Assembly: GCF_003751225.1 (NCBI RefSeq)
Contig: NZ_RJKE01000001.1
Location: 6,634,001 to 6,698,000 of the forward strand
DNA length: 64,000 nt
Reading direction: 5' to 3'
Origin: Actinocorallia herbida
GTDB taxonomy: Bacteria > Actinomycetota > Actinomycetes > Streptosporangiales > Streptosporangiaceae
In this document: piece by piece, positions 38,773 through 62,434 of the stretch
Layout of the letters: the number at the start of each line of letters is the position of its first letter
Numbering within the stretch: position 1 is the stretch's first letter
Notes under the pieces: model-generated
Told to the model about the DNA's origin: nothing
Database searches by the model: none
The model's input: only the letters and a program-made list of their open reading frames with translations
Translations under genes and position numbers: made by a program

Positions 38773-38791
38773 CACGGCAATGGGCTCCGTT

Positions 38792-38816
38792 GTTTCGCTG
38801 GGGGAAACGAAGTTTC
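38792..38816. promoter_or_regulatory. Catabolic operator, copy 3, at the surface operon
   Basis: GTTTC (38792-38796), N7, then GAAACGAAGTTTC (38804-38816): three perfect half-sites with the same 3- and 7-bp spacings, in mirrored order. A further GAACC-like half (GCGAACC) follows near 38830. Confidence 0.75.
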
Positions 38817-38945
38817 GCAAGTGCGCCCTAGCGAACCGCTGTCAAGGGATCGGTGTCAAGGCCGGACCCCAAGGCGAAACGCAAACGTTTCATTCAACGG
38901 ATCGCCGTTTCCCATTCGGGGGACATCCGGCTACCGTCCCTCGAC

Positions 38946-41964: not shown

Positions 41965-41966
41965 CC

Positions 41967-43671: not shown

Positions 43672-43696
43672 GGGACAGTGTTTCCATAAGCGAAAC
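43672..43696. promoter_or_regulatory. Catabolic operator, copy 5b, at the monooxygenase promoter
   Basis: GGGACAGTGTTTC (left arm with two changes), N7, GAAAC (43692-43696), 14 bp before the GTG of the flavin reductase fusion. Confidence 0.65.
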
Positions 43697-43709
43697 GAGG
43701 GGGGCTCAG

Positions 43710-44933: not shown

Positions 44934-46198
44934 CACTCATCGCCGAAAGGCTGCTCACCACTCTCACCGAGGCCGAGAAGGCCCGGATGGAGAAGGTGGA
45001 GAGCGTGCTGCCCGCGCTGCGCGAGGCCGCGGCGAAGGCCGACGAGACGGGCGAGTTCCCGATCGGCCACATCGCGCTCATGCGCGAGGCGGGCATCCTC
45101 GGGCTCATCGTGCCCGAAGAGTTCGGCGGGCTCGGCGGCGGCCTGCGCGACCTCGCCGGGGCCACCTTCACGCTCGGCTCGGCCTGCCCGTCGACGGCGC
45201 TGGCCTACTTCTTCCACAACACCAGCGCGTCGCGCGGCCTGCTCCCGCTGGAGGCCATCGAGGCCGGGCTGTTCTCCGAAGAGGAGAACCCGGTCGTCGA
45301 GGCGTTCGCCAAGAAGGTCCTCACCCTGATGGCGGGCGGCACCTGGCTGGCGAACTTCGCCAGCGAGGAGGTCAAGAGCTCCAGCGCCAACATCGCCATC
45401 GCCACCACGGCCGAGCCGGTCGAGGGCGGCTGGAAGCTGAACGGCGTGAAGTCGTTCGGCTGCGCCACCGGCGTCGCCGACATCTACCTGGTGACGGCGA
45501 AGATCGCGGGCACCACCGACGCGAACGGCCTGTCGCTGTTCCTGGTCAAGCGCGAGTCCCCCGGCGTCGCCTCCCGCGACAAGTGGAACGGCCTGGGCAT
45601 GCGCGCGTCGGCCAACGACGGCATCACCCTCACCGACGTGTTCGTCGCCGCGGAGGACGCGCTGACCGTCCCCGGCTCGTTCGTGAAGATGCTCCAGATG
45701 AGCCGCGGCAGCTTCGTCGGCAACCAGCTCGCGATCATGGCGAACTACCTCGGCGCGGCCCAGGGCGTCTACGACTACGCGCTGGAGCGGCTGACCAGCA
45801 AGCGCTTCGCCGACTCCGGCAAGTCCATCGCCAGCTCCCCCATGCACCAGGTGATCATCGGCGAGATGACCGAGCGCCTGGAGACCGCCTACCACTGGCT
45901 GCGCCGCCAGCTGGAGCTGGAGACCTCCGAGCCGCCGCTGCTGCCCAAGGCCGACGTGTACCGTCAGTGGCGCATGGCCAAGGGCAGCATCTCCGAGGCC
46001 TGCTTCGATGTCGTCGTCGGCGCGTTCAAGGCCTGCGGCACCTCCGCCGCCACCATGGACGGCGTGATCGGCCGCGGCCTGCGCGACCTGTCGATGGCGC
46101 TGGTCATGACGTTCCCGCCCGAGCGGGGCAGGCTGGAGGCCGCTTCGATGATCACCGACGACCGCGAGAACGAGCTGTTCGCGAGCGTGAACAAGTGA
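44930..46198 (+). CDS. Acyl-CoA-dehydrogenase-fold flavin-dependent monooxygenase
   Basis: 422 residues with the acyl-CoA dehydrogenase fold: GILGLIVPEEFGGLGGG, G-W-K-L-N-G-V-K-S-F-G-C-A-T-G and a C-terminal helical bundle. The catalytic Glu of true dehydrogenases is not evident, and a flavin reductase gene is directly coupled, so a two-component monooxygenase like HsaA, DszC or HpaB is the better reading. It would hydroxylate an aromatic, heterocyclic or sulfur-bearing intermediate using FMNH2 or FADH2 and O2. Confidence 0.75.
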   Translation: MTLIAERLLTTLTEAEKARMEKVESVLPALREAAAKADETGEFPIGHIALMREAGILGLIVPEEFGGLGGGLRDLAGATFTLGSACPSTALAYFFHNTSASRGLLPLEAIEAGLFSEEENPVVEAFAKKVLTLMAGGTWLANFASEEVKSSSANIAIATTAEPVEGGWKLNGVKSFGCATGVADIYLVTAKIAGTTDANGLSLFLVKRESPGVASRDKWNGLGMRASANDGITLTDVFVAAEDALTVPGSFVKMLQMSRGSFVGNQLAIMANYLGAAQGVYDYALERLTSKRFADSGKSIASSPMHQVIIGEMTERLETAYHWLRRQLELETSEPPLLPKADVYRQWRMAKGSISEACFDVVVGAFKACGTSAATMDGVIGRGLRDLSMALVMTFPPERGRLEAASMITDDRENELFASVNK

Positions 46199-47652
46199 CC
46201 CCGGCCCCCCTGCGCGACCTCGTCGCCGGACGGTGGCGGGACGCCGAGGTCGAACTCGCCCTCGTCCGGGAGAACCCGCTCACCGGTGAGGCGCTGGGCC
46301 CCGCCCTCGCCACCTCCCCCGCGCGGGTGGAGGAGGCCCTGGCGGCGGCCGACGCCGTCCAGGACGCCTGGGCCGCGACCACGCCCGAGGAGCGCGCGAG
46401 CGCCCTGGAGGCCGTCGCCGCCGCGCTGGAGCCGCGCGTCGCGGAGATCGCGGCGCTGGAGTCCTTCGCGACCGGCGTCCCGATCCGGCAGACCCTGCCG
46501 CTCGGCATGATCATCACCGGCTCGTTCCTGCTCGCCGCGGGCCAGCTCCGCGAAGGCTGGCTGACCCGCGGCCTCCGGCGTGAGGACGGCCGCGAGACCG
46601 AGGTGCTGCTGCTGCCGTGGGGGCCGGCGCTGTGCCTGACCCCGTGGAACGCGCCCGCGCCGATGGGCGCGCACAAGGTCGCCAACGCGCTCGCCGCCGG
46701 CTGCCCCGCGATCCTCAAGGCCAGCGAGTTCGTGCCCTACGGCAGCCAGCTCATGGCCGAGGTCATCGACGGCGCCCTGCGTGCGGCGGGCGTCCCGGAC
46801 GGGGTGTTCCAGTTCGTCCAGGGCGACGCCTCGGTCGGCGGGAGGCTCACCCTCGACCCGCGGATCCGCGCGGTGTCGTTCACCGGCGGCGCCAAGGGCG
46901 GCGCCGCGGTGGCCGCGGCGTGCGGCGCGGGCGTGAAGCCGGTCCAGCTGGAGCTGGGCGGCAACAACCCGCTCATCATCCTGCCCGGCACCGACACCGC
47001 GACCGCCGCCCGCGCGGCGGTCGACCTGCTGACCACCCTGAACGGCCAGTGGTGCCGCGCGCTGGGCAGGCTCATCGTCCCGGCCGACGACCACGACGCG
47101 ATCGTGTCCGCCGTGCTCGACCGGCTGGCGACGCTCAAGCCGGGCGACCCGCTGGACGAGGCGACGGACTTCGGGCCGCTCGTCCACTCCGCGCACCGCG
47201 GCACCGTCGAGGCCCAACGCGCGGCGCTCGGCGGCACCGTGCACACCGCGCTCAAGGTGGCCGAAGAAGGCAACTTCCTGTCTCCCGCGCTCGTCACCGG
47301 GGTGCCCGCCGACCAGGCCGTGGAGGAGATCTTCGGCCCGGTCGCGACGGTCCACGCCTACGGGACGGTCGAGGAGGCCCTCGCCCTCGCCAACGGCACC
47401 TCCTACGGGCTCGAGGCCTACGTGTTCGGGCCCGACGAGGAGGCCGCCCTGGCCGTCGCGCGGAAGGTCCGGGCGGGCGAGGTGAAGGTGAACGGCTCGA
47501 GCATCATGAGCCTCCACCTGTTCGCCCCGCGCCCCGCCTGGGGCCGGTCGGGCCTGGGCGAGGAGGGCACCGCCGAGACGCTGCGGTTCTTCACCAACCC
47601 CCGGGTCGTCGGCGCCGAGGGCGGCTTCGCGCTGCACTCCCGGGAGGCGTGA
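46195..47652 (+). CDS. Aldehyde dehydrogenase 1
   Basis: 485 residues. Cofactor segment LTPWNAPAPMGAHKVANAL, the general base Glu in LELGGNNP and the nucleophile Cys in LNGQWCRALGRL are all present, so the enzyme should oxidise an aldehyde with NAD(P). The N-terminal third is divergent from betaine-aldehyde types. GTG 46195 overlaps the upstream stop (GTGA), which makes it co-translated with the monooxygenase. Confidence 0.85.
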   Translation: MTPAPLRDLVAGRWRDAEVELALVRENPLTGEALGPALATSPARVEEALAAADAVQDAWAATTPEERASALEAVAAALEPRVAEIAALESFATGVPIRQTLPLGMIITGSFLLAAGQLREGWLTRGLRREDGRETEVLLLPWGPALCLTPWNAPAPMGAHKVANALAAGCPAILKASEFVPYGSQLMAEVIDGALRAAGVPDGVFQFVQGDASVGGRLTLDPRIRAVSFTGGAKGGAAVAAACGAGVKPVQLELGGNNPLIILPGTDTATAARAAVDLLTTLNGQWCRALGRLIVPADDHDAIVSAVLDRLATLKPGDPLDEATDFGPLVHSAHRGTVEAQRAALGGTVHTALKVAEEGNFLSPALVTGVPADQAVEEIFGPVATVHAYGTVEEALALANGTSYGLEAYVFGPDEEAALAVARKVRAGEVKVNGSSIMSLHLFAPRPAWGRSGLGEEGTAETLRFFTNPRVVGAEGGFALHSREA

Positions 47653-48779
47653 TGCGCGTCGTCGTCGCCGGGGCGGGGCCCGTCGGGCTCACCGCCGCCG
47701 TCGGGCTGGCCCGCCGCGGGTTCGCGGTGACCGTCCTGGAGGCGGGGCCGGATCTCGCGGGCGAGTCCCGCGCCTCCACCTACCACCCGCCGACGCTGGA
47801 GATGCTCGCCGACCTCGGCGCGCTCGACCGGCTGATGGCGCGCGGCCTGGTGTCGCACACGTTCCAGTACCGGGAGCGGCGCGGCGGCGTCGTCGCGGAG
47901 CTCGATCTGCGCCTGCTCGCCGACGACACCCCGTACCCGTACCGGGTGCAGTGCGAGCAGAGCAAGCTCACCCCGATCCTCCTGGACCTGCTCCGCGAGG
48001 AAGGCGGCGAGGTCGTCTTCGACGCCCCCGTCGTCGACGTCGCGCAGGATGCCGAGACGGCGACGGCGATCACCGCCGACGGCACCCGGTACACCGGCGA
48101 CTGGCTCATCGGGGCCGACGGAGCCGGCTCGCGCGTCCGCAAGGCGCTGAACGTCCCCTTCGAGGGGATCACCTACCCCGAGCGGTTCCTCGTCGCCTCC
48201 ACAGAGGAGGACCTCGAGGCGCTCATCCCGGGCATCGCCGCGGTGAACTACGTGTTCGACCCGGAGGAGTGGCTGGTCCTGCTCCGCACGCCGGACCACT
48301 GGCGGGTGCTGTTCCCCACGCCCGAGGACACCCCGGACGAGATGGAGCTGGCCCGGCTGCCCGAGCGGCTGCGGGGCGTCGCCGACACCGAGTGGAAGGT
48401 CGCCCACTCGACCCTCTACCGGGTCCACCAGCGCGTCGCCGCCGACTTCCGGACCGGCCGCGCCGTCCTCATCGGCGACGCCGCCCACGTCAACAACCCC
48501 CTGGGCGGCATGGGCCTCAACAGCGGCGTCCACGACGCGGTCGCGGTCTCCGCCGCCCTCGGCGACGTGTCGGCCCTGGACGCCGCGTGCGCGAAGCGCC
48601 GCGACGTGGCCCGGTCGTACGTGCAGAAGATCACCCACTCCAACTGGGAGCAGCTGCGCAATCCCGAGGCCCACAAGGCGGGCCTCCGGGAGCTCGCGGC
48701 CGACCCCGTGCGCGCCCGCGCCCACCTGCTGCGCACCTCCATGATCGCCTCCCTGCGCCCTGTCGGAGGCGCGGTATGA
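47652..48779 (+). CDS. FAD-dependent aromatic hydroxylase (PHBH-like)
   Basis: 375 residues of the group A flavoprotein monooxygenases. The dinucleotide motif is VVVAGAGPVGLTAAVGLARRG, cut here at G-x-G-x-x-G; the second is D-W-L-I-G-A-D-G-A-G-S-R-V-R, and the FAD ribityl motif is VLIGDAAHVNNPLGGMGLN. It hydroxylates a phenolic or related ring with NAD(P)H and O2. It is shorter than most phenol hydroxylases and lacks the thioredoxin-like C terminus. It starts at the TGATG junction with the aldehyde dehydrogenase. Confidence 0.85.
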   Translation: MRVVVAGAGPVGLTAAVGLARRGFAVTVLEAGPDLAGESRASTYHPPTLEMLADLGALDRLMARGLVSHTFQYRERRGGVVAELDLRLLADDTPYPYRVQCEQSKLTPILLDLLREEGGEVVFDAPVVDVAQDAETATAITADGTRYTGDWLIGADGAGSRVRKALNVPFEGITYPERFLVASTEEDLEALIPGIAAVNYVFDPEEWLVLLRTPDHWRVLFPTPEDTPDEMELARLPERLRGVADTEWKVAHSTLYRVHQRVAADFRTGRAVLIGDAAHVNNPLGGMGLNSGVHDAVAVSAALGDVSALDAACAKRRDVARSYVQKITHSNWEQLRNPEAHKAGLRELAADPVRARAHLLRTSMIASLRPVGGAV

Positions 48780-48795: not shown

Positions 48796-50205
48796 GTGAG
48801 CGGCTCGATCGCGGTCGAGAATCCGGGGCGGATCGGCGAGGTCGTCGGGGAGGTCCCCGTCGCGACGGCCGCGCAGGTCGACACCGCGGTGCGGGCGGCG
48901 GGCGCGGCGCAGCGCGCGTTCGGCGGGCTGCCGGTCGCCGAGCGGATCGCGGTGCTGGAACGGGTCGCGGGGTCCCTGGAGGACGACGAGGCGCTCGCCG
49001 AGCTGCTGGCGCGGGAGAGCGGGAAGCCGCTCGGCGACTGCCGCGGGGAGATCCGGTTCGCCGGCGTCTACCTGCGGTGGGCGGCCTCTCGCGCGGCCGG
49101 GGTGCTGGCCGACGCGCACACCGACGACGCGTCCGGGCGGCTGCTGCTGCGGCGGCGGCCGTTCGGGGTGGTCGGCGCGATCACCCCGTGGAACGCGCCG
49201 ATCATCCTCACCCTGCTCAAGGTCGGGCCCGCTCTCGCGGCGGGCAACACGATCGTGGTGAAGCCCTCTCCCCTGGCCCCGCTGGCGATCGCGCGGATCC
49301 TCGCGCGGTTCCCCGACGGGCTGGTGCACGTCGTGCACGGCGAGGCCGAGGCGGGCGCGGCGCTGGTCTCCCACCCGCTCGTCCGCAAGGTCGCGTTCAC
49401 CGGCGGCGAGGCCGCGGGCCGCGCCATCGGGGCGCTCGCCGGGAAGGCCATCACCCCCGCGGTGCTGGAGCTCGGCGGCAACGACCCCGCGGTCTTCCTG
49501 GCCGACGCCGACCTCTCCGACGCGGCGATGGACCGGCTCGTCATGGGGTCGTTCCAGAGCGCCGGGCAGGTCTGCATGGCCGCCAAGCGGCTCTACGTGC
49601 CCGAGGCCCGGTTCGCCGAATTCCGGGACGCGTACGTGGCGGCCGCGGCCCGGGTCGTCGTCCTCGGCGACGCGCTCGCGCCGGACACCACGGTCGGCCC
49701 CGTCATCAGCGCGGGCGCGGCGGAAAGGCTGCGGGCGCTCGCGGCGCTCGGCGAGCCCGTCCCGCTCGGACGGGTCGCGGTGGACCTCGCGCGCGGCCAC
49801 TACGTCCGCCCGACCCTGCTCACCGGACTCGACGACGCCTCCCCCGTCGTCGCCGACGAGCAGTTCGGGCCCGTGGTGCCGGTCCTGACCTACCGGGAAG
49901 AAGAGGACGTGCTCGCGCGGGCGAACGCGGGCGAGCTCGGCCTCGGCGCCTCGGTCTGGTCGGCCGACGAGGACCGCGCGTTCGCGTTCGCCCGGCGCTT
50001 CGAGGCGGGCTTCACCTTCGTCAACACCCACGGCCGGACCGGCATGGCGCTGCGCGCCCCCTTCGGCGGCGTCAAGCGCTCCGGCTTCGGCCGCGAGTAC
50101 GGCGAGGAGGGCATCACCGAGTACACCCAGACCTGCGCCGTCCACCTCCCCGCCGCGTTCCGCGCGGGCGGCGCCGGCATGGGCGCGGCGGCCTACCCGG
50201 CCTGA
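48796..50205 (+). CDS. Aldehyde dehydrogenase 2
   Basis: 469 residues, GTG 48796 with GGAGG 5 nt upstream. Motifs: ITPWNAPIILTLLKVGPALA, LELGGNDPAVF with the general base, and the nucleophile in SAGQVCMAAKRL. It is not a near copy of the enzyme at 46195 and probably acts on a different intermediate. It is the last gene of the 43710-50205 operon, ended by a long hairpin. Confidence 0.87.
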   Translation: MSGSIAVENPGRIGEVVGEVPVATAAQVDTAVRAAGAAQRAFGGLPVAERIAVLERVAGSLEDDEALAELLARESGKPLGDCRGEIRFAGVYLRWAASRAAGVLADAHTDDASGRLLLRRRPFGVVGAITPWNAPIILTLLKVGPALAAGNTIVVKPSPLAPLAIARILARFPDGLVHVVHGEAEAGAALVSHPLVRKVAFTGGEAAGRAIGALAGKAITPAVLELGGNDPAVFLADADLSDAAMDRLVMGSFQSAGQVCMAAKRLYVPEARFAEFRDAYVAAAARVVVLGDALAPDTTVGPVISAGAAERLRALAALGEPVPLGRVAVDLARGHYVRPTLLTGLDDASPVVADEQFGPVVPVLTYREEEDVLARANAGELGLGASVWSADEDRAFAFARRFEAGFTFVNTHGRTGMALRAPFGGVKRSGFGREYGEEGITEYTQTCAVHLPAAFRAGGAGMGAAAYPA

Positions 50206-52820: not shown

Positions 52821-53096
52821 TCAGAAGTCGACGGTCGCGCGCGAGGCGAGGCGCGGCCGGAGCCATCCGGCGACCTCGAGGTGCGACGGGTGCTCCTGGT
52901 ATCCCTTGAGCCCTTCCAGATCGGCGTGCTCGGTGAGCAGGACGAGGTCCCAGGAGACCGCGGCCCGCACCACGTCGACGCCGACCGTGAGCTTCTGGAT
53001 CTGCGGGACGCCGGGTACGAGTCCCTCCAGCAGCTCCTTCGCTTCGGCCGCGTCGGCGGGGTCGGTGAACTTCATCAGGACGACATGGGTCAGCAC
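52821..53096 (-). CDS. Dabb-family (stress-responsive alpha/beta barrel) protein
   Basis: 91 residues starting at GTG 53096 (M-L-T-H-V-V-L-M-K-F), with GGAGAG suitably spaced. T-H-V-V-L-M-K-F-T-D, the central V-D-V-V-R and the L-K-G-Y-Q-E-H-P-S-H-L-E-V motif are those of Dabb dimeric ferredoxin-like proteins, including small cyclases and isomerases that handle reactive intermediates. It is divergent from the tandem nitrilase and shares the operator at 53155, so it is probably part of the pathway. Confidence 0.85.
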   Translation of the reverse strand: MLTHVVLMKFTDPADAAEAKELLEGLVPGVPQIQKLTVGVDVVRAAVSWDLVLLTEHADLEGLKGYQEHPSHLEVAGWLRPRLASRATVDF

Positions 53097-53154
53097 GGCG
53101 GCTCTCCGCTCTCCGGAATCTCTTCCCATCGGGTGGCGCTGATTGTATGTTTTG

Positions 53155-53192: not shown

Positions 53193-54818
53193 ATGTCGGT
53201 CAAGTTGCGGGTCGCAGCTGTCCAGTTCGCCGCGGGCGAAGACGTGGAGGCCAACCTCGCGGCCTGTCTGCGCATGATCGACGCCGCAGCCGCCGAGGGC
53301 GCGGAACTCATCGTGCTACCGGAGTTTTGCAATCATTTGTCCTGGTATGAAAGCCGAGTTACGGCTCACCGTAAAGCCTGCACTCTGGACGGCCCGTTCC
53401 TCCGGGCGATCGCCGAGCGCGCGGCCCGCCACGGCGCGTACGTCAAGCTCAACGTGACCTTGGCCCGCGAAGGCGGCCGGACCACCGCCACCAGCCTCCT
53501 TTACAGCCCCCGGGGAGAGCTCCTCGGCCAGTCGGACAAGCTCACCCTCATGGGCGCCGAGGGCGACCACCTCAACCCGGGCGAGGCCCCCGGCCCGATC
53601 GTCGCGACGCCCGTCGGCCGCATCGGACTGTACGCCTGCATGGAGGGCGTGACCGCCGACGTCACCCGCGACCTCGCCGTCCGCGGCGCGCAGCTCCTGC
53701 TGAACAGCCTGAACTCCTTCGCCACCGACGAGGCGAGCCTGCACATCCCGGTGCGCGCGGCCGAGAACAAGGTGTGGGTCGTCGCCGCCAACAAGGTCGG
53801 CTCCCTGCTCCCCGAGGCGCACCTGCCCGCGATCGCCGAGAAGCTGGGCGTCCCGGAGGAGTGGCTGCACGGCGCGGGCGAGAGCCAGATCGTCGCGCCC
53901 GACGGCACCGTGGTGGCCAGGGCGCCGCGCACCGGCGAGGCCGTGGCCGTCGCCGACATCGACGTCTCCGCCGCCGACCTCAAGGTCCGCGGCGACGGCA
54001 CCGACATCCTCGCCCGCCGCCGCCCCGAGCTGTACGGGCCGATCGCCTCCGCGCCCGTCGCGCGCACCGCCGCGCCCGGGGCCGACGCGGCCAAGGTCGC
54101 CGTCGTCGCCTCCGCCGACCCGCTCGCGGGCGCGGCCGAGGCCGCCGCCGCGGGCGCCGAGCTGATCGTGCTCCCCGAACTCGCCTTCGGGGACACCGAG
54201 CGGGCCGAGGTCGTCGCGATCCTCGGCAAGGCGCTGTCCGGCACCTCCGCCCACGCCGTCACCAGCGCGCGGGACGGCGACGCCCATGTCGGCCTCGTGG
54301 TCTCCGCCGAAGGCGAGGCCGGAGCCCAGCTCCAGCTGCACGCCGGCGCCCGCACCCCGTGGGCGACCCGGCTCGGCGCCGCCGTCGAGATCTTCACCCT
54401 GCCGTTCGGCCGCCTCGCCGTGGTCGTCGGCGACGACGCGGTGACCGTCGAGACGTTCCGGCTCGCCGCGATCGCCGACGCCGACGTGGTGGCCGTGCCG
54501 CGCGCCGCGGGCGAGGCCTGGGAAACGGCGCTCGGCCTGCCCGAGAGGGCCGCGGAGAACCGGTTGAACATCGTTTCCACCTGGGCCGAAGGCGGCCAGG
54601 TCCTCGACCTCACCGGCGACTTCACCCTCTGGACGGCCTGGGAGGGCCCGTTCACGGGACGCATCAGCCACCCGATCGTCACCGAGGCGGGCCCGGGCGT
54701 CACCTACGCGGTCGTGCACCCCGCGCAGGCCGTCAACCGGTTCGTCTCCAAGAACACCGACCTGGTGAACGGCAGGGCCTGGCAGGCTCTGGCCGGCCTC
54801 ACCGAAACCGCGCCGTAA
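53193..54818 (+). CDS. Tandem nitrilase-superfamily amidohydrolase
   Basis: 541 residues, two carbon-nitrogen hydrolase domains in one chain; single-domain enzymes have about 270-350. Domain 1 (about 1-280) has the catalytic Glu in LIVLPEFC, Lys in SDKLTLMG and a Cys in GLYACMEGV. Domain 2 (about 300-530) keeps VLPELAFGD, but the nucleophile position reads VVVGDDAVTVE, with no Cys, so it is likely structural. The enzyme should hydrolyse an amide, nitrile or N-carbamoyl bond. ATG 53193 follows AGGAGG. It stands between two operators. Confidence 0.8.
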   Translation: MSVKLRVAAVQFAAGEDVEANLAACLRMIDAAAAEGAELIVLPEFCNHLSWYESRVTAHRKACTLDGPFLRAIAERAARHGAYVKLNVTLAREGGRTTATSLLYSPRGELLGQSDKLTLMGAEGDHLNPGEAPGPIVATPVGRIGLYACMEGVTADVTRDLAVRGAQLLLNSLNSFATDEASLHIPVRAAENKVWVVAANKVGSLLPEAHLPAIAEKLGVPEEWLHGAGESQIVAPDGTVVARAPRTGEAVAVADIDVSAADLKVRGDGTDILARRRPELYGPIASAPVARTAAPGADAAKVAVVASADPLAGAAEAAAAGAELIVLPELAFGDTERAEVVAILGKALSGTSAHAVTSARDGDAHVGLVVSAEGEAGAQLQLHAGARTPWATRLGAAVEIFTLPFGRLAVVVGDDAVTVETFRLAAIADADVVAVPRAAGEAWETALGLPERAAENRLNIVSTWAEGGQVLDLTGDFTLWTAWEGPFTGRISHPIVTEAGPGVTYAVVHPAQAVNRFVSKNTDLVNGRAWQALAGLTETAP

Positions 54819-54859: not shown

Positions 54860-54884
54860 GAAACAGTGTTTCCCCTAGCGAACC
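54860..54884. promoter_or_regulatory. Catabolic operator, copy 8, of the chlorophyll-breakdown-like operon
   Basis: GAAACAGTGTTTC (54860-54872), N7, GAACC (54880-54884), 32 bp before the first gene. Confidence 0.8.
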
Positions 54885-54915
54885 AAACCCCTCCGAACCA
54901 GGACGGACGAACCCG

Positions 54916-55719
54916 ATGAGCGAGACCATCCAGTCCGTCGAGCAGATGCTCGACAGCCGGCCCGTCACCGACGTGACGGTCACGTTCGAGCGCTACCAGG
55001 CCCTGCTACTGGAGCTCAAGGCCAAGATCGACGCGCGCTTCGAGACCACGCGGGACCCGTCGACCCTCGAGCTCGAGTCGTACGGCACCTACCCCGAGGG
55101 TCCCGGCGGACGCGTCTCGGCCTACTCCGGCCCCGAGATCGACTGGATGGTGCACTCCTGGCTCGGCAACCCCGCCGCCAGCTTCGCCAACCTCCACCTG
55201 ACGGTCTGGCTCGGCCCGCACATCCGCGTCCCCCACCTCGGCATCGCCCTCCTGGTGTGGCCCGAGGGCTGGTTCTACGTCGACTCCGTGCCGCGCGTCT
55301 CCCTCGTCATCGACGGCGAGTACTACGACAAGTACTACGCGCCCGTCAACGAGCCGTGGCTGAAGTTCAAGGACGACAACCCCGAGTTCACCTGGTTCAC
55401 CAGCCCCGCCGCGTTCATCCGCACCAGCCTGTCCCCCACCGCCCAGTGTTACTCCTTCCCGCTGTCGGAGGACAACCTCCAGGCCGTCGAGAAGTGGGCG
55501 CGCGAGCACGTCGACCGCTGGCTCGCCTGGGTCGACGAGGCCGAGGAGGTGCCGGAGGAGGAGCGCGCGGCCCTGCGCGAGACCGACCTGACGATCCGCC
55601 GGAACATCGCCGAGCGCGACCCCGCCAACTCCATGGGCGTCCGCTTCTTCGGCGAGGAGCTCACCGAGAAGCTCGTCCGCGCCCTGTGGGGCGGCGACCG
55701 GGAACTGCCCCGCCCGTGA
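54916..55719 (+). CDS. Red chlorophyll catabolite reductase (RCCR)-like protein 1
   Basis: 267 residues, first gene of an eight-gene overlapping operon. The block from E-Y-Y-D-K-Y-Y through the S-P-A-A-F-I-R-T-S-L-S-P-T-A motif matches the plant RCCR pattern of a Y-Y region followed by S-P-S-L-F-V-R-S-A-F-S-P-T-A, and the upstream F-A-N-L-H-L-T-V-W strand and D-S-V-P-R-V-S-L correspond to its central sheet. RCCR belongs to the ferredoxin-dependent bilin reductase superfamily and reduces a linear tetrapyrrole. Membership is judged from motif pattern, not an alignment score. The reductant, probably a ferredoxin, is not encoded in the operon. Confidence 0.65.
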   Translation: MSETIQSVEQMLDSRPVTDVTVTFERYQALLLELKAKIDARFETTRDPSTLELESYGTYPEGPGGRVSAYSGPEIDWMVHSWLGNPAASFANLHLTVWLGPHIRVPHLGIALLVWPEGWFYVDSVPRVSLVIDGEYYDKYYAPVNEPWLKFKDDNPEFTWFTSPAAFIRTSLSPTAQCYSFPLSEDNLQAVEKWAREHVDRWLAWVDEAEEVPEEERAALRETDLTIRRNIAERDPANSMGVRFFGEELTEKLVRALWGGDRELPRP

Positions 55720-56657
55720 GCACCCTCATCAGGTCCCTCTGGACGGCGGCCCGCACCCACGGCGAGTCGCCCTTCGACACCGCGCACCTCAAGGTCTACT
55801 ACCCGGCGGTCGCCGAGGGCACCGACACCGAGCGGCTGACGGGCGTCTTCCCGCCCGCGCCCGGCAGGTTCCCCGTCGTCGTCATCATCTCCGGCGTCAA
55901 CGTCGCCCAGGACTCCTACCGGACCTGGGCCGTCGACATCGCCAAGGCCGGCTACGTCGTCGTCACCTTCGACCGGGTCGCCGAACTGTTCGGCGGCCAG
56001 GTCGGGCTGACCCCCGGCGTCGACCTCGACGCCGCCAAGCCCGGCGTCTACGGCACCCGGCCGACCTGCCCGGCCGTCCCCGCCATCCTCGACGCGCTCG
56101 CCGGGATCGACCTGCTCAAGGACTCGATCGACCTCGACCGGGTCGCGCTCGGCGGCCACTCGGCGGGCGGCACCGTCGCCCTCCAGTCCGCCCGCTTCTT
56201 CCCCGGCGTCAAGGCCGTGTTCGGCTACGGCACGCACACCATGGTCGCCACCATGCTCGGCTGGCCCGCGGGGACCGTGCTGCCCGCCCAGGTCGACACG
56301 CCGGTCTTCCTCGCCGTCGGCGACCGCGACGGCGTCATCCTCGGCAGCAGCGACCGCTACGGGCAGGACGGCAGCGCCGACCCCGTCAGCCGGACCTTCA
56401 CCGAGGCGCTCCCCGGCACCGGCCACCTCCTGGCCGTCCTGAACGGGGCCAACCACTTCGCGGTCGCCGACCCCGTCGATCCGACCGCCGCGCGGGCCTT
56501 CCTCGACCTGGAGCCCTCAAGGGAACCGGCCGAGAGCAGGAGCGACTACCTGGAGGTGCTCACCGCCTTCCTGGACGCCCTGCTCCGGGACGACCCAGAA
56601 CCGATGGAGCGAGTGCGGAAGAACCCGCCGGGCTCCGTAGAACTGCTGGAGCGATAG
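55716..56657 (+). CDS. Chlorophyllase/dienelactone-hydrolase-like enzyme
   Basis: 313 residues, GTG 55716 overlapping the previous stop. Strand P-V-V-V-I-I-S-G-V-N-V with SYRTWAVDIAKAGYVVV, nucleophile elbow LGGHSAGGTVALQ (chlorophyllases have G-H-S-R-G-G), acid in VGDRDG and His in GANHFAV complete an alpha/beta-hydrolase triad. No signal peptide. In context it may remove an ester side chain, such as phytol or methyl, from a tetrapyrrole-like molecule; a general esterase cannot be excluded. Confidence 0.7.
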   Translation: MSTLIRSLWTAARTHGESPFDTAHLKVYYPAVAEGTDTERLTGVFPPAPGRFPVVVIISGVNVAQDSYRTWAVDIAKAGYVVVTFDRVAELFGGQVGLTPGVDLDAAKPGVYGTRPTCPAVPAILDALAGIDLLKDSIDLDRVALGGHSAGGTVALQSARFFPGVKAVFGYGTHTMVATMLGWPAGTVLPAQVDTPVFLAVGDRDGVILGSSDRYGQDGSADPVSRTFTEALPGTGHLLAVLNGANHFAVADPVDPTAARAFLDLEPSREPAESRSDYLEVLTAFLDALLRDDPEPMERVRKNPPGSVELLER

Positions 56658-57857
56658 ATGCTGAAGAACTTCTGGTACGCGGTCGAGTTCTCGCACGAGA
56701 TCACGACGAAGCCCAAGAAGATCACCTGCCTCGGCCAGGACTTCGTGGTCTACCGGACGTCGAAGGGGCAGGTCGTCTGCCTGTCCGACCTGTGCGCCCA
56801 CCGCGGCGCGGCCCTGTCGGGCGGCTGGACCAAGGGCGACTGCGTGGTCTGCCCCTACCACGGCTGGGAGTTCGAGCCGGGCGGCGAGTGCACCAAGATC
56901 CCGGCCAACCTCGAAGGCCGCGGTATCCCGAAGAAGGCCCGCGTCGACTCCTACCCGACCGAGGAGCGGTACGGGCTCGTCTGGGCGTTCCTCGGCGACC
57001 TGCCCGAGGAGGAGCGCCCGCCGATCCCGGTGTGGCCGGAGTTCGACGATCTGAAGAAGAACGGCGGCCGGTGGAAGCCGGTCTACGGGGAGTACCTCTG
57101 GAACTCCAACTACGAGCGCATCCTTGAGAACGGCTGCGACATCTCCCACACCCCGTTCGTCCACGCGGGCGCGTTCGGCAACCCCGAGCGTCCGGAGGTG
57201 GAGGAGTACGAGGTGAACATGCCGGACGAGTGGTCGGCGTTCGCGACCGTCCGGCTCTACCCGCCCCGGCCCAAGGGCCTGTGGGGCAAGATCACCGGCG
57301 GCAACAACAAGAAGCTCGAGGACCGTCCGCCGGTCGAGACCAGCGCGGGCTGGATGCTGCCCAACATGATCAAGCTGCACGTGCGGCTGCCCATGGGCAA
57401 CATCATCATCTACGACAGCAACGTGCCGATCAGCGAGACCCAGACCCTGGTGAAGTTCGTCGCGCTGCGCGACTTCTTCACCGCGGACTGGGCCGACGCC
57501 AACGCGCTCAAGCGCATCTACCGGATCTTCGAGCAGGACGCGCCGGTCGTCGACGGCACCCGTCCCGAGCTGCTGCCCGCCGACCTCGCGGCCGAGCTGC
57601 ACGTGAAGTCCGACCTCATCGCCGTGCACTACCGGCGGCGCCGCCAGGAGCTGGCCGACAAGGGCTGGCTGCTCGGCGACGAGGACCGCATCGTGGGCGA
57701 CGTGCCGCGCCGCGAGGCGACCGTCATCGCCTCGCCCGCCCGCAAGAACAACCCCGCGCTCGCCCGTGCCTGGGTGCACAAGGCCCGCGGCGAACACCCC
57801 CGAGTCGACGAGTCCATCCTCGCCGGCGACGCCGAAGCCAAGGAAGGGCAGTCATGA
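56658..57857 (+). CDS. Rieske-type oxygenase, pheophorbide a oxygenase-like
   Basis: 399 residues. The [2Fe-2S] ligands are in LCAHRGAALSGG and CPYHGWEF (C-x-H, then C-x2-H). The mononuclear iron site is NGCDISHTPFVHAG (D-x2-H-x4-H). The N-terminal opening L-K-N-F-W-Y-A-V-E-F and single-component length fit the PaO/vanillate-demethylase/CMO group. In plants PaO opens the chlorin ring and its product goes to RCCR; here RCCR-like genes flank this gene directly. No predicted C-terminal TM helices are seen, unlike plant PaO, so the protein should be soluble. Confidence 0.78.
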   Translation: MLKNFWYAVEFSHEITTKPKKITCLGQDFVVYRTSKGQVVCLSDLCAHRGAALSGGWTKGDCVVCPYHGWEFEPGGECTKIPANLEGRGIPKKARVDSYPTEERYGLVWAFLGDLPEEERPPIPVWPEFDDLKKNGGRWKPVYGEYLWNSNYERILENGCDISHTPFVHAGAFGNPERPEVEEYEVNMPDEWSAFATVRLYPPRPKGLWGKITGGNNKKLEDRPPVETSAGWMLPNMIKLHVRLPMGNIIIYDSNVPISETQTLVKFVALRDFFTADWADANALKRIYRIFEQDAPVVDGTRPELLPADLAAELHVKSDLIAVHYRRRRQELADKGWLLGDEDRIVGDVPRREATVIASPARKNNPALARAWVHKARGEHPRVDESILAGDAEAKEGQS

Positions 57858-58579
57858 CCTCTCTCCCGAAGGGTCTGTTCGACCGGACCCTCGCCAAGAT
57901 CGAAGAGATCGACGACCTCAAGCTCGTGCTCGGCGAGGACCTGTCCGGCTCGTTCGGGCCCGAGCCCGTCGGCAGGCTCGAGGTGCGGACCGGCACGAAG
58001 CTGGCGAAGGTCGTCTCGATCGGGCTCGTCGTGCCGCAGATCGGCATGGACAGCCACATGATCTTCGCGTTCCTGCCGGGCGGGTCGCCGATCCCGCACT
58101 TCACGCTGGACTCGGTCGAGGCGGGCGGGCAGCTCGCCTTCCACCTCGACCTCGTGCCGCGCGCCGACCTCGCCTCCCACCTGGGCTACCTGGACGCCGC
58201 GTTCGAGCCGCTGACCCCGGCGTTCGACCGGTCGAGGGAGCTCTTCGGGGCCTCGCGCGCCGCGATCGGGCCGCGCCAGTACGCGATGATGTCGCCCTGG
58301 ATGCTGGTGCACCGCGCCGACGCCGAGCAGTTCGAGCAGGTCGACGCGTTCGTCGACGACTACTTCGGCCACTGGAAGGGCCTGGTCGAGAACGGCCTGC
58401 CCAAGGACGTCCTCGCGACCCTCCACGACACCGACCTCGCCGCCCGCGACGCGCTCAACCGCTCCTACCTGTTCAGCCCCGAGGTCGACCCGGTGTGGGC
58501 GAACGTCACCCGGCTCGTCGGCGCGGAGGCGTCGGCCCGGCTGCGGGCGCACCTCATGAGCAACGAGGTCGATCTGTGA
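57854..58579 (+). CDS. RCCR-like protein 2
   Basis: 241 residues, ATG 57854 overlapping the Rieske stop by 4 bp. The segment S-H-M-I-F-A-F, I-P-H-F-T-L-D-S-V, then FHLDLVPRADLASHLGYL aligns in pattern with the RCCR stretch L-L-D-L-x-P-R-K-D-L-x-x-H-P-x-Y and is closer to plant RCCR at this point than protein 1 is. A later SPWMLVHRADAEQF segment fits the family's S-P-S-L-F-V-R region. The two RCCR-like chains may form a heteromer or act in successive reductions. Confidence 0.65.
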   Translation: MTSLPKGLFDRTLAKIEEIDDLKLVLGEDLSGSFGPEPVGRLEVRTGTKLAKVVSIGLVVPQIGMDSHMIFAFLPGGSPIPHFTLDSVEAGGQLAFHLDLVPRADLASHLGYLDAAFEPLTPAFDRSRELFGASRAAIGPRQYAMMSPWMLVHRADAEQFEQVDAFVDDYFGHWKGLVENGLPKDVLATLHDTDLAARDALNRSYLFSPEVDPVWANVTRLVGAEASARLRAHLMSNEVDL

Positions 58580-59499
58580 GCGAACCCAGCGAGTGGCAGA
58601 CCCGCATCGCCGGCGAGTGGCACGGCCGGCCGTCGCTGTTCGACGGCCAGGGCGTGTGGTGCGGGTACGAGGACATTCGCCGCTCCTCGGTGTTCGAGGA
58701 CGGCAAGACCATGTACTACATGGACGGCGGCCTCGAAGGCGGCGGGAAGCTCGCCGGGCAGTTCCGGCTCGGCGCGCCCTTCGCGTTCGGCGTCATCGAC
58801 TCCGACGCCGACCGGGTCTACACCGGCCCGGACTTCTACGGCACCGGCCAGCCTTACGGCGGCTTCGTCGACGCCCACTACTACGGGCCCGGCTGGCAGG
58901 TCGACCTCAACACCTGGAACCACAACCTGCCCGACGGCGAGACCCAGGTGTACTCCTCGGTGCTCTACCAGGGCTGGACCGTCGTCGGCTGCTTCAACGG
59001 CGTGTACAAGCGCCCGTCGTCGCCCGACTACGACATCCCGGGGCACCTCGCCGCCGAGACCCGCAACGGGCCCGTCCCGTTCATCCTGCCGACCAAGCAG
59101 ACCGGCGGGTACACGGGCGTGTGCGAGCTGTGGGGCGCCGACCAGAAGCTCATCGGCGACGTCACCGTCACCCTGGAGCTGGAACCGATCGACCTGCTGC
59201 GCACCCGCGCGCACGTCACCTGGTCCGGCGCGATCGAGCGGTCCTACACCGTCGAGCAGCGGCGTGACGGCACGAAGATGTTCTACGAGGGCCCCGACGC
59301 GTGGGGCAACTCGCAGGCCTTCGGCCGGGCCAACTTCCCCAGCGTGCACTTCACCGACGTCACCAAGATCAAGGGCCGCGAGTTCATGATCGACGCGACG
59401 CCGGGGATGAGCGCGGGCGAGACCCTCGCCGTCAACTACGAGGTGTTCGAGGGCAACCGCCTGTCCGGCGTCATCCACGGGGTGCTGACATGGCGGTAG
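58576..59499 (+). CDS. Unrecognised beta-rich protein of the operon
   Basis: 307 residues, GTG 58576 overlapping the previous stop. Rich in Gly, Tyr and Trp with repeated short strands (G-E-W-H-G-R-P-S-L-F, YYGPGWQVDLNTWNH, E-G-P-D-A-W-G-N-S-Q-A), and no catalytic motif. The opening W-x-G followed by many strands recalls lipocalin/calycin folds such as bilin lyases or carotenoid-hydratase-like proteins, but this is only a resemblance. Such a barrel could carry the hydrophobic substrate between enzymes. Confidence 0.5.
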   Translation: MSEPSEWQTRIAGEWHGRPSLFDGQGVWCGYEDIRRSSVFEDGKTMYYMDGGLEGGGKLAGQFRLGAPFAFGVIDSDADRVYTGPDFYGTGQPYGGFVDAHYYGPGWQVDLNTWNHNLPDGETQVYSSVLYQGWTVVGCFNGVYKRPSSPDYDIPGHLAAETRNGPVPFILPTKQTGGYTGVCELWGADQKLIGDVTVTLELEPIDLLRTRAHVTWSGAIERSYTVEQRRDGTKMFYEGPDAWGNSQAFGRANFPSVHFTDVTKIKGREFMIDATPGMSAGETLAVNYEVFEGNRLSGVIHGVLTWR

Positions 59500-60242
59500 T
59501 CGTCGTCACCGGAGGCACCCGCGGCATCGGCTTCGGCATGGCCAAGGAGCTCATCGCGCGCGGCGCGACCGTCGTCATCTGCGGCCGCTCCGGCGTGGAC
59601 GAGGCGGCGGCCGAACTCGGCGCGACCGGGGTCGTGTGCGACATGACCGACCGCGCCCAGGTCGAGGCGCTGTGGGAGAAGGCCGCCGCACTCGGCCCGG
59701 TCGCGCACTGGGTCAACAACGCGGGCGTCACCACCTCCCGCAAGCACCTCGCCGACCTGCCCGTCGCCGAACTGGAGACCGTCGTCTCGGCGAACCTCCT
59801 CGGCGTCATGAACGGCAGCGCCGTCGCGGTGAGGCACATGCTGGCGCAGGGCTCGGGCACCGTGTGGAACATGGAGGGCTTCGGCAGCGACGGCCGCACG
59901 ATGCCCAACCTGACCGCCTACGGAGCCACCAAGCGCGCGGTGACCTACGTGACCGACAGCCTCGCCAAGGAGCTGAAGGGCACCCCGGTCAAGGCCGCGC
60001 ACCTGTCGCCCGGCATGGTCCTGACGGACCTGCTCACCCACGACTACGCGCCCGAGGAACTGGAGAAGACCAAGAAGATCTTCAACATCCTCGCCGACAA
60101 GGTCGAGACCGTCACGCCGTTCCTCGCCGAGGGCATCCTCAAGGGCGTCAAGAACGGCGGCCGGGTCGCGTGGCTGACCGGCGGCAAGATCGCCTTCCGG
60201 TTCGCCACGGCGGGCTTCCGCAAGCGGGACCTCTTCTCGTGA
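59490..60242 (+). CDS. Short-chain dehydrogenase resembling chlorophyll b reductase (NYC1/NOL)
   Basis: 250 residues. NAD(P) motif TGGTRGIGFGMAKEL, V-N-N-A-G-V, and Y-G-A-T-K. The C-terminal half is distinctive: W-N-M-E-G-F-G-S-D-G, SPGMVLTDLL, K-I-F-N-I-L-A-D-K-V-E-T-V, and a tail A-F-R-F-A-T-A-G-F-R-K-R-D-L-F. Plant NYC1/NOL share F-N-M-D-G-A-G-S-x-G, the SPGMVLTDLL motif, M-F-N-I-x-x-x-x-x-E-T-V and a T-A-W-x-R-R-x-R-W-F-type tail. They reduce the C7 formyl group of chlorophyll b. ATG 59490 gives a 10-bp overlap with the previous gene. Confidence 0.75.
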   Translation: MAVVVVTGGTRGIGFGMAKELIARGATVVICGRSGVDEAAAELGATGVVCDMTDRAQVEALWEKAAALGPVAHWVNNAGVTTSRKHLADLPVAELETVVSANLLGVMNGSAVAVRHMLAQGSGTVWNMEGFGSDGRTMPNLTAYGATKRAVTYVTDSLAKELKGTPVKAAHLSPGMVLTDLLTHDYAPEELEKTKKIFNILADKVETVTPFLAEGILKGVKNGGRVAWLTGGKIAFRFATAGFRKRDLFS

Positions 60243-60835
60243 GCGGCATGGACTACCCCGTCGTCCTGGCGATGGAGGACTTCGTCCCGGTGGCGCTCAC
60301 CGTCACCGGGGTGCTGCTCCTCTCCAAGGTCGACGACCTCGACACCCGCCTGGTCCGGACCGCGGCACTGCTGCTCGGGCTGGGCGGGTTCGCCAAGTGC
60401 GGCTGGAAGCTCCTCATCGCCTCGACCGACATCGACCTGTGGGTGATGCCGCTCCTGCTGTTCCCGCTGCTGTCGGCGGGCTTCCTCACCCTCGTCAAGG
60501 CGCTGGAGCCGCGGCTGCCCATCGCCGCCGCGGCCGGGCTCTGGATGGCCGCGCTCGGCACGTCGTTCGCCATCGGCGACACCCTGCCGATGCTCATCCT
60601 GACCATCGGCGTCAGCACCGCCGTCGCGGTGTACCTCTTCCGGCGGCACAAGCTGTTCCTGCTGTGGATCGCCGGGCAGTACGCGCTCGGCCCCCTCGGC
60701 GGCCAAGAGCACCAGACCATCGCCCTCCAGTGGATCGAGCAGTCGATCAACACCGCGTCCCAGGCCGTGTTCGCCTTCGCCGCCTGGCGCGTGCTCACCC
60801 TCCAAGAGCGAAAGAGACAGGAGACCCCGGCATGA
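60239..60835 (+). CDS. Six-helix hypothetical membrane protein
   Basis: 198 residues, GTG 60239 overlapping the SDR stop. About six hydrophobic segments (for example FVPVALTVTGVLLLSKV, LWVMPLLLFPLLSAGFL, LPMLILTIGVSTAVAVYLF) with short loops and a basic C terminus. No transporter motif or family is recognised. Tight coupling implies a role in the pathway, such as membrane docking or uptake. Confidence 0.6.
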   Translation: MSGMDYPVVLAMEDFVPVALTVTGVLLLSKVDDLDTRLVRTAALLLGLGGFAKCGWKLLIASTDIDLWVMPLLLFPLLSAGFLTLVKALEPRLPIAAAAGLWMAALGTSFAIGDTLPMLILTIGVSTAVAVYLFRRHKLFLLWIAGQYALGPLGGQEHQTIALQWIEQSINTASQAVFAFAAWRVLTLQERKRQETPA

Positions 60836-61575
60836 CCGACGCGCTGGGCTGGCGCCGCAAGTTCGGCGTCATCGCGCCCTCGACCAACACCATCGTCGAG
60901 CCCGACTTCTACCGGATGGGCGTCCCGGGCGTCACGTCCCACTTCTCCCGGATCCACATCCGCGACCAGAACATGGCCGGCGACGAGGGCATGGAGCGCC
61001 TCCTCGACCAGATCCGCGACGAGATCGGCGCGTCCTGCGAGCGGGTCATGACCTGCGAGCCGGACTACATGGTCATGGGCATGTCCGCCGAGACGTTCTG
61101 GGGCGGCGTCGAGGGCAACCGCCAGTTCGTCAAGCAGATCCACGACCTCACCGGCCTCCAGGTCGCGACCGGCGCGGAGGCCTGCGAGCGGGCCCTGAAG
61201 CTGTACGGGGCGCGGCGCATCGGCGTCGTCACCCCCTACCAGCCCGTCGGCGACGCCAACGTGCGGACGTTCTTCTCCGAGCTGGGCTTCGAGGTCGACA
61301 AGATCATCGGCCTCAAGTGCCCGACCGCGGTGTCGATCGCGCACGTCACCGAGGACGAGCTGCGCGCGGCCATCCAGGAACTCGCCTCCGGCGACGTCGA
61401 CGCCGTCATCCAGTGCGGCACCAACCTCTCCATGGTCGGCCTCGCAGACGAGGCCGAGCGCTGGCTCGGCCTTCCCGTCATCGCCATCAACGCCGCCACC
61501 TGGTGGATGGCGCTGCGCGAGAACGGCATCGAAGACCGCGTCGAAGGCGCCGGCCGCCTCCTGCGCGAGCACTGA
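60832..61575 (+). CDS. Asp/Glu-racemase-superfamily enzyme, arylmalonate decarboxylase/maleate isomerase type
   Basis: 247 residues, ATG 60832 overlapping the previous stop. WRRKFGVIAPSTNTIVEPDF and the R-I-G-V-V-T-P-Y segment define the family. Maleate isomerases use two Cys residues. Here the first site reads VMGMSAETFWGG with no Cys, while the second keeps it in VIQCGTNLSM. A single second-site Cys is the arrangement of arylmalonate decarboxylase, so the reaction could be decarboxylation or a one-base isomerisation. It closes the operon. Confidence 0.75.
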   Translation: MTDALGWRRKFGVIAPSTNTIVEPDFYRMGVPGVTSHFSRIHIRDQNMAGDEGMERLLDQIRDEIGASCERVMTCEPDYMVMGMSAETFWGGVEGNRQFVKQIHDLTGLQVATGAEACERALKLYGARRIGVVTPYQPVGDANVRTFFSELGFEVDKIIGLKCPTAVSIAHVTEDELRAAIQELASGDVDAVIQCGTNLSMVGLADEAERWLGLPVIAINAATWWMALRENGIEDRVEGAGRLLREH

Positions 61576-62247: not shown

Positions 62248-62434
62248 CCCCGCTCCTCTTCTCGTCCACTGGTCCCCCGAGCATTCCATCGCCGAGGCAC
62301 GCCGCTGACCTCGGCCGGTCCCCGCGGCGGCGAAATTCTCCCGGTGAACGCCCGACATCAGTGCAATCCAAACTCCGGCGCTGAATAATGGATCATTCGG
62401 GGCGCTTGGGACGGTCGGCACTGCGGAGGGCTCT

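Follow-up and report, generated by a model that had tools for sequence, protein, structure and literature searches.

The window analysed here, a stretch of 64,000 nucleotides (positions 6,634,001 to 6,698,000 of contig NZ_RJKE01000001.1) from the 9.8 Mb, single-contig genome of Actinocorallia herbida, carries an array of eight genes, designated A to H, on the + strand at 54916-61575. In order, these specify a red chlorophyll catabolite (RCC) reductase (RCCR) family protein of 267 amino acids (A, 54916-55719), a 313 amino acid alpha/beta hydrolase with the motif GHSAGG (B, 55716-56657), a 399 amino acid Rieske non-heme iron oxygenase of the VanA type (C, 56658-57857), a second, divergent member, of 241 amino acids, of the superfamily that includes RCCR and the ferredoxin-dependent bilin reductases (FDBRs) (D, 57854-58579), a 307 amino acid double beta-barrel protein that is a candidate tetrapyrrole binder or carrier (E, 58576-59499), a 250 amino acid short-chain dehydrogenase/reductase (SDR; F, 59490-60242), a small membrane protein of 198 amino acids (G, 60239-60835) and a 247 amino acid enzyme of the Amdase or Asp-Glu racemase type (H, 60832-61575). 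The junctions from A-B to G-H measure -4, 0, -4, -4, -10, -4 and -4 bases, and this succession of 4 or 10 base overlaps and one abutment suggests translational coupling. A preliminary description of the locus had reported eight overlapping genes, all of which are indeed present, and had seen in them the enzyme types of plant chlorophyll breakdown, namely two RCCR-like proteins, a chlorophyllase-like hydrolase, a Rieske oxygenase of the pheophorbide a oxygenase (PaO) type and an SDR with a chlorophyll b reductase signature, together with a beta-rich protein, a membrane protein and an Asp/Glu-racemase-fold enzyme.

A scan of GTDB genome contigs returned 228 pattern matches and 111 confirmed relatives, and the best 80 of these 111 loci (numbered L below, genomes being numbered G) were compared. 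They derive from Actinomadura, Actinoplanes, Catellatospora, Nonomuraea, Streptosporangium, Nocardia, Micromonospora, Dactylosporangium, three Streptomyces and others, and include three metagenome-assembled genomes (MAGs) labelled Acidimicrobiaceae, Acidimicrobiales and Actinomycetota; as near relatives are among them (for example L011, Actinocorallia populi contig14), the counts are not independent. By tblastn A was found in 80 loci, C and D in 79 each, E, F and the upstream carbon-nitrogen hydrolase gene N in 78 each, B in 76, H in 75, an aldehyde dehydrogenase (ALDH) in 70 and G in 51, and a filter that admitted proteins without stops and within 45 amino acids of the length of the window's protein retained 80 A, 79 D, 77 C, 77 E, 76 B, 76 F, 75 H, 71 N, 67 ALDH and 50 G sequences. 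Genes A to F and H are all present in 72 of the 80 loci, ordered on one strand in 71 and accompanied by N upstream in 70, a co-occurrence that exceeds chance. The exceptions in gene order comprise an inverted N in L015 and inverted C and E in L029, and the losses comprise B from L042 and L045, E from L072, and H and N from L053 (5.7 kb); H is missing from the three MAG loci, one of which, L085, is also without B and F, and G lies beyond H in five of the loci where it is found. Among 250 genomes of the family to which A. herbida belongs, A and D are confined to the same 15, of which 13 also have E. Two further genomes of this family, without A or D, carry C-terminal fragments of E (G566:C1:3652552-3652956 and G644:C233:34106-34450), which are probable remains of a lost operon. 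An intact A beside nothing more than short N and C remnants was observed in Actinoplanes couchii (L080:9618-10924), representing either a decayed copy of the operon or an A retained alone. A plasmid or phage origin was dropped as A had no match in plasmids or phages, and none of its 8 pattern matches in viral contigs was confirmed.

A falls within the RCCR family far beyond chance, scoring 60.1 bits against PF06405 (cut-off 24.9, E 2.6e-16) over residues 29-257 and model positions 4-251 of 253, and reaches 24.7 bits against the bilin reductase family PF05996 (Fe_bilin_red), below the cut-off of 31. A single-sequence search of the PDB with A retrieved chloroplastic RCCR (3agb, which we take to be the Arabidopsis enzyme, AtRCCR) at 7.5e-11, and a profile of 25 A proteins retrieved 3agb at 6.6e-18 and the plastid ferredoxin bilin reductase 6qwq at 1.4e-9; the alignments of chosen rows (alignments A3-A7) held 25, 27, 23, 18 and 21 sequences. 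The functional residues of RCCR are E154 and D291, in a numbering that we anchored on the F/V difference between 3aga and 3agb, presumably F218V. Residue conservation was counted over 88 A, 86 D and 79 H proteins, these being the window protein, the filtered locus proteins and 7, 6 and 3 deep-lineage copies, respectively, with G737 (L116 and L117) left out. D235 is present in 88/88 A proteins and aligns to D291 of AtRCCR, with a register uncertain by one, the MAFFT alignment setting it opposite the neighbouring Asp, and H107 is present in 85/88. A is similar to plant RCCR in passing the family cut-off and in keeping the Asp of the D291 region, but differs from it in having Ala at the position of E154 and in its location in a bacterial, probably catabolic, operon beside a second reductase-like protein.

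D, the other protein that had been called RCCR-like, is a remote relative: the window protein attains 15.9 bits against PF06405, under the cut-off, and does not match PF05996, so that of the two proteins A alone passes PF06405 and neither passes the bilin reductase family. At E<=0.1, 14 of 27 D family members match PF06405 (best 3.4e-6) and 3 of 27 match PF05996, and the D profile gave weak PDB matches to RCCR (0.0012), phytochromobilin synthase (0.0048) and PebA (0.017). The kinship of A and D is apparent from a direct hhalign comparison (probability 98%, E 1.5e-13), and within the 15 A-bearing family genomes the A profile also catches D at low score in 9 and the D profile catches A in 10. 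The bilin reductase GtPEBB is described as requiring Asp-99 and Asp-219 (PMC6755814), which we count as residues 101 and 221 in the 6qwq chain and which, by alignment with RCCR, HY2 and GtPEBB, correspond to D86 and D212 in D and to A111 and D235 in A. Both acids are kept in all 86 D proteins, and A keeps the second only. D thereby resembles the FDBRs (PF05996; PebA, PebB, HY2, PcyA), from which the present system differs in that the window's A lies under the PF05996 cut-off, D is unmatched, and the operon genes scanned include no heme oxygenase partner. A tree of 41 sequences (233 columns; A, D, RCCR, GtPEBB and HY2) recovered an A clade with an ultrafast bootstrap (UFBoot) of 98 and a group of D with the FDBRs GtPEBB and HY2 at 97, with RCCR at the junction; this tree is not relied on, owing to three incomplete reference rows, long branches and the discord between the placement of D with FDBRs and its better match to PF06405.

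For E, the beta-rich character noted earlier is borne out by structure prediction, which gave a confident antiparallel barrel model. The best of the listed matches to this model are DUF3598 (2o62), BFA1, nitrobindins and CpeS, at 8-10% identity, and the two full-length matches among those listed are a Nostoc protein and BFA1, a chloroplast protein. Bilin lyases of the S/U and T types are described as lipocalin-like barrels (PMC10254012). The predicted fold of E is shared with the DUF3598, BFA1 and CpeS barrels, but the identity is low and sequence comparison does not connect them, as the profile matched no DUF3598/BFA1/CpeS-type Pfam family in any of 23 members (E<=1) and no PDB entry (E<=1). 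The modelled fold makes E a candidate tetrapyrrole binder or carrier. In L089 a second E-like protein with 28% identity to E is encoded near E (L089:14530-15432, - strand), which suggests a wider, unnamed barrel family.

The remaining genes of the operon bear less resemblance to the plant enzymes than had been proposed. B, which had been regarded as chlorophyllase-like, passes the dienelactone hydrolase family DLH (31 bits, cut-off 21) and scores 25.0 against Chlorophyllase PF07224 (cut-off 26), over residues 38-84 only; an assignment as chlorophyllase was rejected, one bit short of the curated threshold. GHSxGG is conserved in 79/79 B proteins, and PDB matches were weak and mostly to polyester hydrolases. 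C scores 82 bits for Rieske and 98.4 for VanA_C, carries the Rieske motif in 79/82 proteins and the mononuclear iron motif in 82/82, and has as its nearest PDB relatives SxtDIOX, SxtT, NdmA, NdmB, the Rieske protein 7qwt and DdmC. PaO is distinguished by a C-terminal CxxC and a membrane anchor. The sole CxxC of the window's C is at position 62, inside the Rieske motif, and a simple scan found no hydrophobic segment in it; with VanA_C in 21/21 family members and the PaO domain PF08417 in 0/21 (E<=1), the claimed PaO type was rejected. Searched across whole genomes, PF08417 was detected in 1 of 17 carriers, outside this operon, and in 2 of 14 controls. In G001, a genome of the same genus as A. 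herbida, a Rieske-looking gene that matches the PaO domain (L119:5233-6300, + strand; 28.5 bits, cut-off 27) is situated away from the operon and adjoins genes that by eye resemble IclR and acyl-CoA dehydrogenases.

F is an SDR (adh_short, 130.4 bits) with the conserved C-terminus SPGMVxTDLL...FNILADxVETVTPWLA...WLT, which is reminiscent of that of NYC1/NOL. The signature SPGMVLTD reported for it is present in the window, but in its exact form it occurs in just 1 of 78 F proteins, the window's own; SPGM[VT] is found in 70 of 78, and the best 60 of 208 PDB matches include no chlorophyll-named chain. G has no family match and displays three hydrophobic segments in a simple hydropathy scan, in line with the membrane protein first described. 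The racemase-type fold proposed for H is likewise confirmed by 75.3 bits against Amdase PF17645 (cut-off 25.9), and its profile retrieved maleate isomerase (1.8e-17) and arylmalonate decarboxylase (1.6e-11) from the PDB. S85, Y136, G196, T197 and N198 are invariant in 79 H proteins and C195 is kept in 76, the deep-lineage copies of L007, L107 and L110 having Val instead. Arylmalonate decarboxylase employs a catalytic C-terminal Cys. H thus shares with that enzyme and maleate isomerase the family cut-off and the invariant S85 and Y136, but the Val of the three deep-lineage copies indicates that a Cys-dependent mechanism is not universal, and arylmalonate-decarboxylase chemistry was no longer favoured for H. 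In 16 of the 80 loci, all of them from Nocardia (e.g. L062, L065, L070), the first H is accompanied at a distance of 0.3-2.7 kb by a second paralogue (53-59% identity).

The system exceeds eight genes, and its additional members point to full catabolism rather than detoxification. Immediately upstream of A, N (53193..54818, + strand; 541 amino acids) specifies a carbon-nitrogen hydrolase of the nitrilase superfamily with one recognised domain (CN_hydrolase, 144.8 bits, cut-off 23.2). Further upstream, an IclR-family regulator gene (42747..43556, - strand; IclR_C 154.9, HTH_IclR 43.7 bits), divergent from the operon, has matches in 37/80 loci at a median identity of 79%. It is followed on the + strand by a flavin reductase gene (43692..44933; Flavin_Reduct 151.8 bits) whose product is HsaB/HpaC-like (HsaB model 125.8 bits, below the cut-off of 230) and bears a C-terminal HMGL-like stretch (35.1 bits over part of the profile), and by a gene for an acyl-CoA-dehydrogenase-fold flavoprotein (44780..46198; PF08028 52.1, PF02770 51.1 bits), present in 52/80 loci, which matches FadE16, HsaA and DszC models, all under their cut-offs, and is possibly the FMNH2-dependent monooxygenase partner of the reductase. 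Next on the same strand lie aldehyde dehydrogenase 2 (46234..47652; Aldedh 342.5 bits in open reading frame (ORF) 45583-47652), an FAD-dependent monooxygenase (47640..48779; FAD_binding_3, 168 bits in ORF 46617-48779) and aldehyde dehydrogenase 1 (48796..50205; NCBIfam ALDH models up to 310 bits, under their cut-offs). Between these and N, a P450 gene (50343-51581, - strand) has a relative in just 1/80 loci and is outside the conserved set, and a small Dabb protein (stress-responsive A/B barrel; 52821..53129, - strand; 66.8 bits, cut-off 25) has matches in 50/80 loci and in L007, L106 and L108.

Beyond the regulator, on the + strand, lie genes for a 'Cyclase' family PF04199 hydrolase (39750..40550; 95.8 bits, cut-off 23.1), possibly an amide or lactam hydrolase to judge from family members, for an MmgE/PrpD-family (de)hydratase (40543..41964; PF03972 204.8, PF19305 107.6 bits) and for a conserved protein that matches no Pfam family (41907..42674, its true start probably near 41967). 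Relatives of the first adjoin A-C-D-E in L085 (56% identity) and L089 (54%), those of the second occur in the L085, L089 and L109 clusters at 49-51%, and the third has matches in 7 loci at up to 69%, with L109 at 33%. The region upstream of these (33631-39602) contains a sortase (38853-39602), a surface-protein-like gene (a weak WxL match, under cut-off) and other unassigned genes; the sortase and secreted proteins were considered as candidate components of pigment uptake, and a sortase is found in both the window and L117 (40% identity), but the secreted proteins of the two barely match. Elsewhere in the window, a gene for a WD40-repeat protein (137 bits) was observed at 27868-28998 (- strand), in an actinomycete; downstream of the operon lie a gene at 61657-62421 (- strand) that resembles one for a Maf-type nucleotide pyrophosphatase, and one combining Peptidase_C14 (caspase) and iHD-CE/HD-CE that exits the window (62438-64000, + strand) and looks effector-type or defence-related.

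Distant lineages repeat the association of A, C and E or D with amide or lactam hydrolases, lyases and CoA transferases, in varying subsets. L085, L089, L109 and L110 hold A, C and E together, with D as well save in L109, where it was unrecognised, and their companions vary among PrpD, Cyclase, HyuA/HyuB, CoA transferase, IclR, N, HMGL, CitE and PEP-mutase-like genes. A family with small genomes (1.0-1.7 Mb, 60-100% complete) matches the A profile in 6/6 genomes, four of which have three or four matches, one each at E below 1e-100, and the other two a single, more distant paralogue; its loci L007, L106, L107 and L108 carry as many as two copies each of A and D with varying companions (C, E, B, F, G, H, ALDH, Dabb, HMGL, isochorismatase, PEP-mutase/ICL-like, CoA-transferase, acyl-CoA-dehydrogenase-like, MFS and TauE genes). 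RCCR/FDBR-like paralogues outside the cluster were also observed in small genomes (L008:12129-13007, L009:2-643, L118:9496-10413), the D-like paralogue of L008 sitting among genes that by eye resemble clpX, clpP and tig. In a further family, L117 (G737) comprises N, the flavin reductase, the acyl-CoA-dehydrogenase-like (ACAD-like) flavoprotein, ALDH2, ALDH, A, C, D, E, F, G and H, without B. H has LIV-type ABC transporter genes as near neighbours, at most some 5 kb away, in L116/L117, and a Peripla_BP_6 protein directly beside it in L107. A Neocarzinostatin-family protein (L116:16184-16816, - strand; 60.4 bits), possibly a binder of a flat hydrophobic ligand, adjoins the transporter genes near the G737 A-C-D-E-F-G-H cluster.

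Taken together, we consider with moderate confidence that A to H form the core of a catabolic operon, probably under IclR control, which imports a linear or ring-opened tetrapyrrole, most plausibly derived from chlorophyll, and degrades it for carbon and nitrogen. A linear tetrapyrrole is the likeliest substrate in view of the tetrapyrroles on which families of the RCCR/FDBR fold act, RCCR and CPO being given as the two other known families of the FDBR fold, both tetrapyrrole-binding (PMC13193486), and in view of the acid pair of D and the bilin-lyase-like fold predicted for E. Chlorophyll-derived bilins fit best, as B and F belong to the conserved set and the heme oxygenase family PF01126 was not found in 6/15 carriers, but an algal bilin is just as possible an input. 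On chemical reasoning, amide or lactam hydrolases and C-C lyases suit lactam or maleimide ends and branched diacids. What the analysis itself establishes is the gene content with its conservation and co-occurrence, the superfamily of A and D, the retention of catalytic residues and a predicted fold for E; the regulation, the substrate, the individual reactions and their order we infer as follows. E would hold or ferry the hydrophobic pigment, and D and A, drawing electrons from ferredoxin, would reduce double bonds of the bridges or end rings. The esterase B, the SDR F and the Rieske oxygenase C may strip or change side groups; bridge cleavage and aldehyde oxidation would then fall to the flavin monooxygenase pair together with the FAD monooxygenase and the aldehyde dehydrogenases. 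N and other C-N or lactam hydrolases (Cyclase here, HyuAB/isochorismatase in some relatives) could open lactam or imide rings, H may act as a decarboxylase or isomerase of an intermediate, and the PrpD-family enzyme would feed branched diacids into central metabolism, which in some relatives lyases of the PEP-mutase/ICL and CitE or HMG-CoA-lyase types and a CoA transferase might also handle. The substrate class suggested in the preliminary description is thus plausible, its RCCR-like pair and barrel protein were correctly seen, and a consumption route for a linear tetrapyrrole in an organism without chlorophyll of its own is supported by the two RCCR/FDBR-superfamily proteins, the bilin-lyase-fold barrel and the conserved operon; its characterization of the operon as a set of plant chlorophyll-breakdown enzyme types was not upheld.

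Several observations weigh against this proposal. At the position of RCCR E154, A111 is found in 87/88 A proteins, so that the Glu is missing, and without this acid, equivalent to FDBR Asp-99, the chemistry of A may differ. The barrel predicted for E also occurs in fatty-acid-binding proteins, luciferases and an anti-sigma factor, and by itself does not establish a tetrapyrrole ligand. The distribution is patchy, the trait occurring in 3/396 genomes of the phylum, 11/296 of the class (6 of them from the one small-genome family) and 15/250 of the family, and in 3/198 genomes, one weakly, of the class of G308 (presumably Acidimicrobiia). The genes for the terminal pathway vary by lineage and only some are in the window, and Mg-dechelatase (Staygreen) was found in none of 17 carriers, but in none of the control genomes either, so that this negative carries no weight. 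Finally, Rieske, SDR, ALDH and monooxygenase genes of the same types are frequent in aromatic and steroid catabolism.

The last point bears on the alternative that survives best, unlikely as we judge it, in which the target of the operon is a non-tetrapyrrole N-heterocycle or an aromatic natural product, and some different flat, hydrophobic ligand came to be bound by the RCCR/FDBR fold and the E barrel. A flavin reductase with an ACAD-type flavoprotein, an FAD monooxygenase, two ALDHs, a VanA-type Rieske protein and IclR would all be at home in such a pathway, A has lost one conserved acid, and the fold of E accommodates many types of ligand; against this, two distinct RCCR/FDBR-superfamily proteins are co-inherited (15/15), D retains both FDBR acids throughout (86/86), and the full-length matches of the neighbouring barrel are the Nostoc protein and BFA1. 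Appreciably less probable is the catabolism of heme-derived bilins (biliverdin, bilirubin), whether from the cell's own heme oxygenase or from soil. FDBR relatives do act on biliverdin, and PF01126 is encoded in 9/15 carriers, the window genome included (4.7 Mb from the operon), but in the other six (two of the small-genome family, G308, G350 and the L085 and L089 genomes) it was not found, other heme oxygenase families being unsearched, and biliverdin from a PF01126 enzyme is consequently not a general source; nor have B and H an obvious role in biliverdin breakdown. The pre-PcyA FDBR clusters of heterotrophic bacteria, as described in PMC10151467, are similar to the present operon in that FDBR-superfamily enzymes of non-photosynthetic bacteria lie in conserved gene clusters, but are reported there to include genes for heme oxygenase, Fe-S, V4R and globin proteins, and no such gene was recognised among the operon genes scanned here.

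It is highly improbable that the operon reproduces the plant route in a bacterium, its orthologues of the plant chlorophyll b reductase, chlorophyllase, PaO and RCCR acting in the plant order. The RCCR likeness of A, the near miss of B at the chlorophyllase threshold and the C-terminus of F, reminiscent of NYC1/NOL, speak for such a copy, and, as in the plant PaO/phyllobilin pathway, a Rieske oxygenase, an RCCR-type reductase, an alpha/beta hydrolase and an SDR occur together; the Rieske protein is, however, of another type, VanA-like with neither PaO domain, predicted membrane segment nor C-terminal CxxC, B does remain under its cut-off, and the exact SPGMVLTD string is confined to a single F protein. 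The extra hydrolases and lyases of the operon moreover suggest full catabolism and not the storage of catabolites seen in the plant pathway. A biosynthetic operon producing a pigment or antibiotic can practically be dismissed, for although many of the host genera are known antibiotic producers and the neighbourhood includes a cytochrome P450 and a Dabb-type protein, the IclR regulator, ALDHs and PrpD here, the HyuAB, CoA transferase and C-C lyases of relatives, the retention of clusters in 1.4-1.7 Mb genomes and the lack of a polyketide synthase or nonribosomal peptide synthetase among the neighbouring window genes scanned all argue against it.

Very large amounts of chlorophyll vanish every year, and to our knowledge there is no established bacterial gene set for consuming chlorophyll or bilin remains. 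The catabolic reading favoured above bears on two questions, the mineralisation of these pigments and the origin of plant RCCR. In the distribution given in a 2009 report (PMC2716323), RCCR is found in land plants and, among cyanobacteria, only in Nostoc and Anabaena, a gap that was left open there, and we found no published account of the operon or of an actinobacterial RCCR in the open-licence PMC literature. Both questions become testable through cultured actinomycetes, whose conserved operon combines a bilin-lyase-like barrel with two proteins of the RCCR/FDBR type. A wider and decidedly tentative possibility is that heterotrophic soil and water actinobacteria mineralise chlorophyll (pheophorbide or phyllobilins) via ring-opened bilins and substituted maleimides and maleates, with central metabolites as the end point and with RCCR-family reductases that predate the plant enzyme or stand parallel to it, and that plants and a few cyanobacteria may owe their RCCR to bacterial stock. 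The gene set is common to several actinobacterial groups, and feeding on pigments, such as the remains of chlorophyll, is its probable role.

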